Assembly (NCBI RefSeq): GCF_900185015.1
Contig: NZ_FXYD01000002.1
Span: forward strand, 124,001-188,000
Length of the DNA stretch: 64,000 nucleotides
Source of the DNA: Octadecabacter ascidiaceicola
GTDB lineage: Bacteria; Pseudomonadota; Alphaproteobacteria; Rhodobacterales; Rhodobacteraceae
Reading direction: 5' to 3'
A model generated the notes under the pieces. That model saw only the letters and a list, made by a program, of their open reading frames with translations. It was not told the origin of the DNA and ran no database searches. Made by a program: the position numbers and the translations under genes. Positions 3,205 through 7,947 of the stretch are shown piece after piece (the stretch's first letter is position 1; each line of letters begins with the position of its first letter).

Positions 3205-3873
3205 ATGGAACCAGATTTCACTTTGTGGGGCATGTTTGCCCACGCGACTATTCCCGTACAATTTGTCATGATTATTCTCCTCGTCGCATCCGTGTGGTGC
3301 TGGGCGGTGATCGTCGACAAATGGGTGCAATACCGCAAAGCACGCGCCGAAGCGCGGGTGTTTGACGAGGCCTTTTGGTCTGGCAACCCACTGGATGAGC
3401 TGTTTGACAAGATTGGCGCGACGCCGAAGGGCCAGTCGGAAAAGATTTTCGCCTCCGGTATGTTGGAATGGCGCCGTTCGCACCGCCAAGACGGTGGGCT
3501 GATTGCGGGCGCGACGTCCCGTATTGATCGCAACATGGATGTGGCAATTGCCAAGGAAACCGAAAGCCTGCAACGCGGGCTGACTGTGCTGGCCACGGTT
3601 GGGTCGGCGGCTCCGTTCATTGGATTGTTCGGGACTGTCATCGGTATCATGAACGCGTTCATCGAGATTGCTGAACAACAGAACACCAACCTTGCCGTGG
3701 TTGCGCCCGGTATTGCCGAAGCGCTGCTTGCCACGGGCCTTGGCCTATTCGCGGCGATCCCAGCAGTTATTTATTACAACAAGCTCAGCAAGGATGCGGA
3801 CCGCATTGTTAGCGGCTATGAGGCCTTTGCCGATGAATTCGCGACGATCCTTAGCCGTCAGTTGGACAGCTAA
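3205..3873 (+). CDS. tolQ: TolQ, Tol-Pal proton-channel subunit
   Basis: Inner-membrane protein of the MotA/TolQ/ExbB family, 222 residues. It has three membrane segments: residues about 14-35, then after a cytoplasmic loop about 128-155 and 165-190, the last two containing the conserved LATVGSAAPFIGLFGTVIGI and APGIAEALLATGLGLFAAIPA regions. TolQ with TolR forms the proton-driven motor that energises TolA across the envelope during cell division. The stop codon is followed directly by the tolR ATG (TAAATG), so the two are coupled. Confidence 0.96.
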   Translation: MEPDFTLWGMFAHATIPVQFVMIILLVASVWCWAVIVDKWVQYRKARAEARVFDEAFWSGNPLDELFDKIGATPKGQSEKIFASGMLEWRRSHRQDGGLIAGATSRIDRNMDVAIAKETESLQRGLTVLATVGSAAPFIGLFGTVIGIMNAFIEIAEQQNTNLAVVAPGIAEALLATGLGLFAAIPAVIYYNKLSKDADRIVSGYEAFADEFATILSRQLDS

Positions 3874-4353
3874 ATGGGCGCGGGTGTTATGAAACAAGCG
3901 GACGGCGGGGGCGGTAGACGCGCGCGCCGTCGGGGTCGCCGCTCAATGCCGATGAGCGAGATCAACGTCACTCCGTTCGTGGACGTTATGTTGGTGTTGT
4001 TGATTATCTTTATGGTGGCGGCACCTTTGTCAGTCGTTGGGGTTCCTGTGCAAACGCCAGAAACCGCTGCCAGCGCATTGCCAACGCCGCAAGAAGAGCC
4101 ATTGACGATTACGCTGAACGCTGAGGGTGGCGTGTTCATTCAGGAGACCGAAGTTGATCGCGCCGAACTGGTTACGCGTTTACGCGGAATTGCTGCGGAG
4201 CGTGACAGTGATCAGATTTTCTTGCGCGCTGATGGCGTGAATGCGTGGAACGAAGTGGCGCAGATTATGGGCGCATTGAACGCAGCCGGATTTAACAACA
4301 TTGGTCTGGTGACAGACATTGGTGGTCCGACGTTGGACGGGCAAGACGGGTAA
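3874..4353 (+). CDS. tolR: TolR, Tol-Pal motor subunit
   Basis: ExbD/TolR family protein of 159 residues with one membrane segment (about residues 35-55) preceded by a very basic cytoplasmic N-terminus. The signature MSEINVTPFVDVMLVLLIIF is complete, including the Asp in PFVDVML that carries protons through the TolQ-TolR channel. The C-terminal part is the periplasmic domain. The ATG directly abuts the tolQ stop. A second in-frame ATG lies five codons on. Confidence 0.96.
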   Translation: MGAGVMKQADGGGGRRARRRGRRSMPMSEINVTPFVDVMLVLLIIFMVAAPLSVVGVPVQTPETAASALPTPQEEPLTITLNAEGGVFIQETEVDRAELVTRLRGIAAERDSDQIFLRADGVNAWNEVAQIMGALNAAGFNNIGLVTDIGGPTLDGQDG

Positions 4354-4359
4354 GCACAC

Positions 4360-5481
4360 ATGAGTGTCGGCACCTATCTTTCAGGCACGGGACACGCGGC
4401 TTTAGTCGTGTGGATGGTTGTCGGCTGGGGCATGTCCTCGGAGCCGTTGCCGTTTGAGGTGACGGAAGTGTCTGTGGTATCTGGTGAAGATTTCGCGGCG
4501 ATGACCCAAGGGGTGCAGCCGGATCAGCCGCCGAGCGAACCTGCCGAGATTGAGCCGCCCGTCGTTGAAGATGTCACGCCACCCGCGCCAGAGGTCGAAA
4601 CACCGCCAGAGGTTGCCGAAACGCCGGTTCCCGTTGAGCCACCTGCACCCGAAACACCGCCAGAGGCACCAGATTTGACGGTGCCGGAAACGGTCGTGAC
4701 AGACGTAGCGCCTGATGTTCCCGATACACCGCAGATTGTTGCGCCGCCGCCGTCGGCTGAAATTGGCATCAGTACGCGCCCCGTGCCACGCCCTGCGACG
4801 CGTGTCGCACCTGAGATTGTTGCACCACCTGAACCGGACGTGACGATTGCGCCCGAGGTGGCGCAAGCACCGACGGAATCGACTGATGCGCCTGTTGAAG
4901 AAGTTGTTGAACCTGACGAAGAAACCACAGCACTTGATGTGGCTGCGGATCAGATTGTGACGGAAGCAGAAGAGCCCGCGTTTGCGCCTGAGATTTCATC
5001 GCGCCCACAAACGCGGCCAAACCGCCCTGCGCCAGTTGCCGAAACACCGTCTGAGGATGCAATTGATCCGGTTGCCACGGCTTTGGCCGAAGCGGGCGCT
5101 GATGAAACAACCACGCCCGAGCCGTCATCCACGTCAACACCGGGTCTGTCTGGTGGGCAATTGTCGGATGGCAATAAATCGGGCTTCCTGCGCCAAGTTG
5201 GGAACTGCTGGAACACCGGCAGCCTGTCTACGGGTGCGCAAAACACCATCATCGAGATGTCCTTTGACATGACACCAGATGGCCGCCCCGTGAGCGGATC
5301 TGTGGCTCTGGAAGGCTATACCGGCGGCAGCGCGGCGGATGCGCAAACCGCCTTTGATACAGCGCGCCGCGCCTTGCTGCGCTGCACCGGTGACACGGGC
5401 TATGATTTGCCGCGTGACCAATACGAGCAATGGCAGCGAATCATTCTGACGGTCGATCCAACCGCAATGAGGCAACGATAA
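4360..5481 (+). CDS. tolA: TolA, energy-transducing envelope protein
   Basis: Periplasm-spanning protein of 373 residues. It has one N-terminal membrane anchor (about residues 8-25), a long Pro/Glu/Val/Ala-rich middle (about 60-275) in place of the Ala/Lys helix of enterics, and a compact C-terminal domain (about 280-370) with a Cys near 283 (NCWNTG) and a second in ALLRCTG, probably a disulfide. TolA connects the TolQR motor to TolB and Pal. The assignment rests on position between tolR and tolB and on the C-terminal domain, because the middle is low-complexity. The stop overlaps the next start in TAATG. Confidence 0.9.
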   Translation: MSVGTYLSGTGHAALVVWMVVGWGMSSEPLPFEVTEVSVVSGEDFAAMTQGVQPDQPPSEPAEIEPPVVEDVTPPAPEVETPPEVAETPVPVEPPAPETPPEAPDLTVPETVVTDVAPDVPDTPQIVAPPPSAEIGISTRPVPRPATRVAPEIVAPPEPDVTIAPEVAQAPTESTDAPVEEVVEPDEETTALDVAADQIVTEAEEPAFAPEISSRPQTRPNRPAPVAETPSEDAIDPVATALAEAGADETTTPEPSSTSTPGLSGGQLSDGNKSGFLRQVGNCWNTGSLSTGAQNTIIEMSFDMTPDGRPVSGSVALEGYTGGSAADAQTAFDTARRALLRCTGDTGYDLPRDQYEQWQRIILTVDPTAMRQR

Positions 5482-5879
5482 TGAGAGTTTTGGCAGCTGT
5501 TTTATCAGTCTGGGCTGCGGGCGTTGCTGCGGATCACGGCACCGAGGAGGTCATGGGTGACCCGAATGGCGCTAATATCGCCTGGGCCGAGAACTTTAAG
5601 GCGCAGATTGCGTCATGTCTGAATTTGGGTCAGCAAACGAACGGCGGAGTGGCATTTGTGTCCGTCTCGTTTGAAATGACACCGAACGCACGGCCCGCCG
5701 AGTATAGTATCCAGCTTTTGAACCCGACGGGCCGCGCGGGCGAGGCCGAAGGGTTTGAGGCCGCACGCCGCGCGATTTTACGCTGTGGGCAGCCAAGTTA
5801 CGCCTTGCCGCTCGATTTGTTTTCGCAGTGGCGCCACGTTGAGATCAGTTTTCCCTACTTTGTGCCTGTGAGTGAATAA
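5481..5879 (+). CDS. Secreted stand-alone TolA C-terminal-domain-like protein
   Basis: Small exported protein of 132 residues. The start at 5481 (TAATG overlap with tolA) gives a clean signal peptide, MRVLAAVLSVWAAGVAA; the longer open frame upstream lies inside tolA. The mature part copies the TolA C-terminal domain just before it: SCLNLG against NCWNTG, VSFEMTPNARP against MSFDMTPDGRP, AARRAILRCG against ARRALLRCTG, and a final QWRHVEISF against QWQRIILTV. Both conserved cysteines are kept. It therefore looks like a duplicated TolA domain released from the membrane anchor. It could bind TolB or Pal as a soluble partner or competitor; this is inference. Confidence 0.82.
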   Translation: MRVLAAVLSVWAAGVAADHGTEEVMGDPNGANIAWAENFKAQIASCLNLGQQTNGGVAFVSVSFEMTPNARPAEYSIQLLNPTGRAGEAEGFEAARRAILRCGQPSYALPLDLFSQWRHVEISFPYFVPVSE

Positions 5880-5964
5880 TGGTGAGCAAGCCGTTTAGAC
5901 CGACGTTGCGGTCTGCAGTGATCCGCCGAGCAAAAAACTCCCCGTTGAAAAGAGGGATAATAAA

Positions 5965-7317
5965 GTGAGTATACGCGCCATGATGACCAAACTTATGACC
6001 GCCTTCGCCGCGACGATGATCGCACTTGTTTCACTCGGGACTGTCGTAGCCCCAGCGCAGGCGCAAGAACCGCTGCGCCTGACGTTGCGCGATGGTGTGA
6101 TTGAGGCGCTTCCTTTTGCATTGCCGAGTTTTGAAGCCGAAGTTGCAGGGTCTGAACAGATGGCGGCCGATATCAGCCGCGTTATTGCGGAAGACTTGAA
6201 CGGCACGGGTCTGTTCCGGCAAATCCAGAGTTCGGCGTTTATTTCCACGCCAGCCGGTTTCGGTAGCCCGATTGAATTTTCCGACTGGCGTGCGATCAAT
6301 GCGCAGGCTTTGATTACCGGTGCAGTGGCAGTGAATGGCAGCCAAGTGACGGTAAAGTTCCGTTTGTATGATGTGTTTTCCGGCGCTGAAATGGGTGAGG
6401 GGCTGCAGTTTGCAGGGACCACCGATGGCTGGCGTCGCATGTCGCATAAAGTGGCCGATGCCGTGTATTCGCGTATAACCGGTGAGGCCGGGTATTTTGA
6501 CAGCCGCATTGTTTATGTCGCCGAAACAGGCCCTAAGGATGACCGCGCAAAACGTCTGGCAATCATGGATTACGACGGTGCAAATGTTCAGTATTTGACC
6601 GACAGCAGCGCGATTGTGCTGGCGCCGCGGTTCTCCGCGACGGGCGATCGGGTGCTATATACCAGTTACGAAAGCGGATTTCCGCGCATCAACGTGTTGG
6701 ATGTGGCGACGGTCGGACGTCAGCAATTGACGACGGCGCCGGGTGACATGGCGTTTTCGCCGCGCTTTAGCCTTGATGGGCGTCAGGTGATTTACAGCCT
6801 GATCAATGGCGGTAACACAGACATCTACCGCACGGATTTGGCAACGGGGCAGAATACCCGTTTGACCAACACGCCTGCAATCGAAACTGCACCAAGCTTT
6901 AGCCCTGATGGAAGCCAGATCGTGTTTGAAAGCGACCGATCCGGCACGCAGCAGTTGTATGTGATGAGCGCTAACGGGGGCGAGCCGCAGCGAATTTCCT
7001 TTGGAAATGGGCGTTATGGCACGCCTGTCTGGTCGCCGCGCGGTGATTTGATCGCTTTTACCAAGCAAGAAGCGGGCCGTTTCCATATTGGCGTGATGCG
7101 TACGGATGGCACCGAAGAACGCCTGCTGACGTCGTCCTTCCTTGATGAAGGTCCGACATGGGCGCCGAACGGTCGCGTCATCATGTTTGGCCGTGAAACC
7201 CAAGGGGCGGACGGCACAACGGCGCTATATTCTGTGGATATCACGGGCCGCAACCTGCGCCGCGTTAGCACGCCGCAAGGCGGGTCTGACCCGTCTTGGG
7301 GGCCTTTGCAGCGGTAA
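5965..7317 (+). CDS. tolB: TolB, periplasmic beta-propeller
   Basis: Periplasmic Tol-Pal component, 450 residues. The start is GTG at 5965, seven bases after an AGAGGGA ribosome site; ATG codons at 5980 and 5983 are alternatives. A signal peptide ends near APAQAQE. Residues about 40-165 form the N-terminal domain and about 170-450 the six-bladed WD40-like propeller, with repeated blade motifs such as [19 protein letters not shown] and [13 protein letters not shown]. TolB links TolA to Pal. It follows the TolA-domain copy after 85 bp. Confidence 0.96.
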
Positions 7318-7410: not shown

Positions 7411-7947
7411 ATGAAACATTTTATCAAAGCCGCACTGGTGATTGGCGCCTTGACGCTAAGCGCCTGTACAAACGCTGACAGATTTGACAACGCCGATGCG
7501 GTTGATCTGAGCGCGCAGAACGCCTTGAACACGCCGACCACGATTGACCAAACTGGTCTTGGCGGCGCAAACGACCCATCCAGCCCGCAGTTCTTTAGTC
7601 AGACAATTGGCGATCGTGTGTTGTTTGAAGTTGATACATCCACGCTGACAGCGGCTGGCCGCGCGACGTTGGACGGGCAGGCCGGATGGCTGGCGACAAA
7701 TTCTGATTATCTAGCGGTCATTGAAGGCCACGCAGATGAGCAAGGCACACGTGAATATAACCTCGCGTTGGGCGCACGCCGCGCCAATGCCGTGCGTGAG
7801 TACCTGATTTCCAAAGGGCTGGCCGCAAGCCGCATTCGCACCGTATCTTACGGCAAAGAACGCCCGCTTGAGGTTTGTTCCGCCGAAAGCTGTTATGCGC
7901 AAAACCGCCGCGCTGTGACCATCATTTCTATTGGTCAGAACAGCTAA
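7411..7947 (+). CDS. pal: Pal, peptidoglycan-associated lipoprotein
   Basis: Outer-membrane lipoprotein of 178 residues. The signal peptide ends in a lipobox LSAC with the acylated Cys at residue 19. The C-terminal OmpA-like domain (about residues 70-178) binds peptidoglycan and contains the usual EGHADEQGTREYNLALGARRA segment with the diaminopimelate-contacting Asp and Arg. Pal anchors the outer membrane to the cell wall and interacts with TolB. It lies 93 bp after tolB, a gap that could hold its own promoter, and 19 bp before cpoB. Confidence 0.97.
   Translation: MKHFIKAALVIGALTLSACTNADRFDNADAVDLSAQNALNTPTTIDQTGLGGANDPSSPQFFSQTIGDRVLFEVDTSTLTAAGRATLDGQAGWLATNSDYLAVIEGHADEQGTREYNLALGARRANAVREYLISKGLAASRIRTVSYGKERPLEVCSAESCYAQNRRAVTIISIGQNS

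Follow-up and report, generated by a model that had tools for sequence, protein, structure and literature searches.

The C-terminal domain of TolA (TolA-III) is a docking site for several phages, for bacteriocins, and for the cell's own TolB. TolB, the phage protein g3p, and colicins bind it by strand addition (PMC7391070, PMC4339652), and a free copy of the domain can therefore compete for such ligands; the evolution of TolA and TonB is treated in PMC12204202. A signal peptide fused to TolAIII increases the release of periplasmic protein in E. coli, where the domain was described as a pore (PMC6195910), and that report cites an exported TolAIII construct of Wan and Baneyx (1998). We consider interference with Tol likelier than a pore as the cause of this release, and the leakage seen when exported TolA-III is made at high level in E. 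coli argues for a cost. For the tol genes of R. sphaeroides, essentiality is known or predicted, and their overexpression has been linked to mislocalisation of Pal (PMC10470753), so a strong competitor for TolB would be costly. No natural free TolA-III is described in the open-access literature that we searched, although absence there is not proof.

Here we describe such a gene, which we call mini, in a window of 64,000 nucleotides from Octadecabacter ascidiaceicola. It has the same build of signal peptide plus TolA-III as the engineered constructs (Wan and Baneyx 1998, as cited; pTA3Y, PMC6195910). These are laboratory constructs of E. coli for periplasmic release, whereas mini is a natural gene with a diverged sequence of its own. 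The TolA-III domain itself is known; the novelty lies in its free, apparently exported, tolA-overlapping, and fast-turning form. The operon reads ybgC-tolQ-tolR-tolA-mini-tolB-pal-cpoB, where we take the outermost genes to be ybgC and cpoB by position. Its features in the window are as follows.

3205-3873, + strand: tolQ (TIGR02796)
3874-4353, + strand: tolR (TIGR02801; 117.5 bits, just under the cut-off of 127.3)
4360-5481, + strand: tolA (stop codon TAA at 5479-5481; domain III at about 5155-5478)
5479-5483, + strand: TAATG, where the tolA stop and the mini start overlap, coupling likely
5481-5879, + strand: mini-TolA, predicted exported single TolA-III domain, 132 aa
5481-5531, + strand: predicted signal peptide of mini, 17 aa, cut between VAA and DHGT (home-made scoring, no SignalP)
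5595-5840, + strand: TolA-III-like core of mini, residues 39-120
5616-5618 and 5784-5786, + strand: codons of Cys46 and Cys102 in this core
5841-5876, + strand: diverged C-terminus of mini, EISFPYFVPVSE, replacing the M-R-x-[RK] tail of TolA
5913-5964, + strand: intergenic element 5' of tolB, from genus comparison
5965-7317, + strand: tolB (TIGR02800)
7411-7947, + strand: pal (TIGR02802)

The start codon of mini (ATG, 5481-5483) shares one base with the stop codon of tolA. The earlier note had called the two genes translationally coupled; the overlap is plain in the DNA, and coupling is its likely consequence. The protein begins with MRVLAAVLSVWAAGVAA, an Ala-rich signal peptide with a predicted cut after VAA at residue 17, followed by DHGT and a single TolA-III domain; the mature protein carries neither a hydrophobic stretch nor a lipobox by the same home-made scoring. 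The domain stands directly behind the signal peptide, and the inner-membrane anchor and periplasmic linker of full TolA are absent. Residues 39 to 120 share 40% identity with the operon's own TolA-III over 86 positions (two-sequence BLASTP, E 1e-16; E 8e-14 in a search of the one genome), and both TolA-III cysteines, C46 and C102, are retained. These results bear out the earlier note, which had described a signal peptide, a TolA C-terminal domain with both cysteines, and the lack of anchor and linker. The genome holds two copies of TolA-III, in tolA and mini, and no third. A single-sequence search with mini recovers TolA of most family genomes. Neither mini nor the window's TolA reached any Pfam or NCBIfam model, TolA included, so mini is identified by direct homology, operon context, and predicted fold; TolA of the family (here 4360-5481) is probably under-annotated. 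A sequence search of the PDB with mini returned chance-level matches only, to virus capsid proteins over 26 residues.

The AlphaFold2 model of mini, built on 32 aligned minis and TolA-III domains, had a mean pLDDT of 87.5. P. aeruginosa TolA-III came first in a structure search, with E-values of only 0.0035 to 0.009. By VIA-align, the model scored Z 8.2 to 10.3 against six crystal-structure TolA-III entries, while unrelated rows reached at most 3.5. TonB-type domains (TonB, HasB, FusB), which share the superfamily fold, gave Z of about 5 to 8; they thus score mostly below TolA-III and differ as anchored force transducers for transporters. Among the best matches are complexes of TolA-III with phage g3p and with a TolB peptide, and a model of the window's own TolA-III led to the same entries (Z 8.6 to 10.4). 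The predicted fold, a check that the earlier note had proposed, is accordingly that of TolA-III. Together, homology, predicted fold, both cysteines, and operon context place mini with TolA domain III, from which it differs in having no anchor or linker, in its predicted export alone, and in its diverged C-terminal tail.

Paired cysteines occur in 75 of 75 TolA-III domains and 26 of 26 minis compared, a count of residues rather than of disulfides. The minis keep the core of the domain, namely, both cysteines (100%), an AARRA motif, LP, and Trp (88%); the Trp beside the first Cys, found in 75 of 75 TolA-III, is Leu in the window's mini. They have lost TolA-specific flanks. These are the GPPL segment, the GG pair and, most markedly, the C-terminal tail, where both M and R fall in frequency from 0.92 in TolA to 0.15. 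The end [MLI]-[RQSH]-x-[RKQHL] is present in 177 of 204 TolA ORFs (drawn from all loci collected, with some duplicate genomes) versus 2 of 23 minis, and the window's mini ends in EISFPYFVPVSE instead of its group's M-R-x-[RK]. In the models, the end of the protein is a longer strand in mini (102-111, mature numbering) and a short helix, at low confidence, in TolA-III (107-111). In TolA-III of P. aeruginosa, TolB pushes the tail aside on binding, and loss of the tail may spare TolB; alternatively, it may leave the binding edge open, so that TolB would bind more easily with nothing to displace.

We infer from these features that mini is a soluble periplasmic mimic of TolA-III that would compete for its ligands, most likely as a decoy against phages or bacteriocins entering through TolA-III; we hold this reading tentatively, at somewhat less than even confidence. 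Co-translation with TolA would match the output of mini to that of TolA. Agents that add a beta-strand to the TolA-III sheet would then meet a free domain with no link to the TolQR motor; the relevant ones are most likely bacteriocins and phage adsorption proteins that use TolA-III for entry. Such a decoy would be retained under frequent attack and lost where attack is not frequent. We know of no attacker of Rhodobacteraceae that uses TolA-III.

The main rival, which we think rather unlikely, is that mini modulates Tol-Pal: the free domain would replace TolA on the N-terminus of TolB and engage TolB without force, by which the cell would tune Pal mobilisation, outer-membrane constriction, or vesicle release. 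For TolAIII and TolB, the Kd in the literature is about 40-200 uM. Its place in the operon, overlapping start, and shared fold speak for such a role, as do the periplasmic release caused by the engineered protein (PMC6195910) and the known or predicted essentiality and the Pal mislocalisation reported for R. sphaeroides (PMC10470753). However, most minis lack the tail involved in TolB binding, and a core regulator should neither evolve as fast as described below nor disappear between relatives whose TolB is 95 to 98% identical. Pal, named beside TolB in the earlier note as a possible ligand, was set aside as a target on published in vitro data.

The distribution of mini was surveyed in 395 family genomes with completeness of at least 90%. 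A second, short TolA-III gene lies between tolA and tolB in 18 of them (counted from tables), and with later searches included, short exported TolA-III genes occur at this position in at least 20 genus groups of Rhodobacteraceae. Intact minis span 113 to 236 aa, nearly all with a recognisable signal peptide (home-made scoring). When the start closest to the upstream stop is taken, 25 of 29 copies show an overlap of 1 or 4 nt, and the other four begin within 3 nt of that stop. Most relatives have no mini, and their tolA adjoins or touches tolB: the distance between the two genes is mostly -3 to about 130 nt without mini and about 400 to 700 nt, filled by mini, with it, or longer where other genes are inserted. 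Conservation outside close relatives had been raised in the earlier note as a point to check; mini does extend well beyond these, to the genus groups counted above, but it is patchy and not generally conserved. A first contig scan of genomes with the mini query found no relative, the query probably being too divergent. A class-wide domain profile search found TolA-type domains in most genomes and, among the matches listed, no short tandem copy outside the family (five two-match genomes excluded).

Within the window's genus, mini is intact in G000, G428 (129 aa; a seeming internal stop reflects an earlier end), and G421, carries an internal deletion and a frameshift in G419, and is absent from the close relatives G417 (TolB 98% identical) and G425 (95%). 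A TolB search yielded 80 named relatives, of which Yoonia maricola, two Sulfitobacter, Octadecabacter sp. B2R22, and Pseudoroseicyclus aestuarii have an intact mini and two further Sulfitobacter a degraded one; the two samples overlap, B2R22 being G421 and P. aestuarii being G294. Yoonia maricola and Sulfitobacter sp. F26169L (loci L157 and L194) are carriers that can be cultured. Another broken copy is found in G481. Mapped on a 93-row TolB tree, the trait requires 14 changes, at least 10 of them on well supported branches, and its clustering exceeds that in all 500 shuffles, which together indicate that mini is inherited for a time and often lost. About 50 nt directly upstream of tolB (5913-5964; GCAGTGATCCGCC...AAAAACTCCCCGTTGAA) are conserved genus-wide, whether mini is present or absent.

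Such a pattern could also arise if the 3' end of tolA were repeatedly duplicated and the copies drifted and were deleted without any selected role, an account that we judge improbable. The broken copies (G419, G481, and the two Sulfitobacter loci) and the clean absences among close relatives agree with it. Protein-level constraint, which decay would not leave, is nevertheless apparent in codon-position differences: first, second, and third positions differ at 40, 39, and 79 of 129 codons between G000 and G428, the third about twice as often as either other, and at 18, 17, and 68 between G452 and G459. This third-position bias indicates that the mini protein is under constraint, and dN/dS was 0.14 to 0.43 where estimable, with dS near saturation in some pairs. 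Strongly diverged copies, moreover, still hold the signal peptide, the overlap, and both cysteines.

Constraint is combined with speed. Between G000 and G428, protein identity is 57% for mini, 87% for TolA-III, and 96 to 97% for TolR, TolB, and Pal, and dN is 0.38 for mini versus 0.02 to 0.10 for neighbouring tol genes. Mini therefore evolves far faster than its neighbours, yet under protein-level constraint. Its DNA is only 59% identical in this pair, which may thus include allele replacement and not drift alone. A decoy accounts better than a core motor regulator for the rapid evolution, the frequent loss, and the relatives on a phage and on plasmids described below; the rapid evolution and loss are also compatible with a nearly dispensable duplicate.

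Minis are closer to the TolA-III of their own operon than chance would give (mean normalised rank 0.23 among 184 TolA-III; KS p 1e-5), the window's mini being an exception with its own TolA-III at only rank 82. Any one of lineage-specific duplication, gene conversion, and co-evolution would account for this. The last, with TolB as the shared partner, is what modulation of Tol-Pal would predict, while several origins or conversion would suit the drifting duplicate; only 1 of 28 copies exceeds 65% identity to its own TolA-III (Yoonia maricola, 73%; others at most 64%), so few look newborn, against the latter. A tree of TolA-III domains has too few columns to separate one origin of mini from several.

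Larger TolA-like genes were also seen in these operons. In G120 (L037, 4297-5655), a second full-length TolA of 452 aa, apparently anchored and with a charged helical linker, lies between tolA and tolB. One genus (L093, 3729-5567; L126, L127, L128) carries an extra Pro-rich TolA-like protein of roughly 500 to 600 aa with a degenerate domain III, placed between tolA and mini. The proteins of G133 (236 aa), G063 (189 aa), and G120 (452 aa) may represent intermediates of whole-gene duplication. TolA of G426 and G422 (L120, L121) is 84 to 86% identical to that of the window at the N-terminus and 43 to 47% in the C-terminal domain; judged by sequence, it looks as though members of the genus had exchanged domain III.

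It is quite improbable, in our estimate, that mini is an accessory subunit, pairing with TolA-III or another envelope protein in a modified Tol machine. The tolA overlap would supply matched amounts, and the second TolA of G120 and the TolA-like protein of about 600 aa show that extra TolA types can be kept in the operon, but high turnover and the single-domain build of mini speak against it.

Exported TolA-III proteins were also found outside the tol operon. Anchorless proteins with a C-terminal TolA-III, judged by eye, lie at other chromosomal loci in G256, G281, G298, G076, and G193. Their N-terminal regions vary, L097, L098, and L038 sharing a similar unnamed one, and two adjoin a YbjQ-family gene. 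In Phaeobacter piscinae, a mobilizable plasmid carries the gene for an exported protein of 223 aa whose C-terminal domain is TolA-III (L227, 4596-5267), and a search with a relative's TolA-III matched four Phaeobacter plasmids and no phage record. Two near-identical IMG/VR contigs of a tailed phage encode a third form of 285 aa, which resembles mini in its signal peptide, TolA-III, and lack of an anchor and differs in its extra C-terminal region and its location outside the tol operon.

L094, 2173-3015: dispersed exported TolA-III gene
L097, 2597-3505: dispersed exported TolA-III gene
L098, 1812-2738: dispersed exported TolA-III gene
L038, 3032-4021: dispersed exported TolA-III gene
L099, 2284-2970: dispersed exported TolA-III gene
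L225, 3893-4750 (L226, same gene): phage TolA-III gene
L229, 10001-10858: phage TolA-III gene

On the opposite strand, the phage gene is flanked by an ORF of 1823 aa, which is probably the tape measure, and by tail genes; a HicB-like gene is nearby. Such a spot in a tail module is typical for an accessory phage gene. In database screens, one phage type only carried an exported TolA-III gene. Plasmid and dispersed copies still end in a TolA-like tail, which limits the argument from tail loss to the tandem minis. High turnover, together with these phage and plasmid relatives, leads us to favour the decoy for mini, tentatively. With more reserve, we suggest that the exported, anchorless TolA-III proteins that recur in Rhodobacteraceae, whether encoded in the tol operon, by other loci, by plasmids, or by a phage, could form a family of periplasmic decoys.

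If mini is a decoy, it would defend the cell as a receptor mimic located within the envelope. A free TolA-III that occurs in nature, is probably produced alongside TolA, and turns over fast would act either in envelope defence or as a competitor of the Tol-Pal motor, which is probably essential in these bacteria. Under either reading, mini would offer a direct handle on how cells separate the job of TolA from its abuse.
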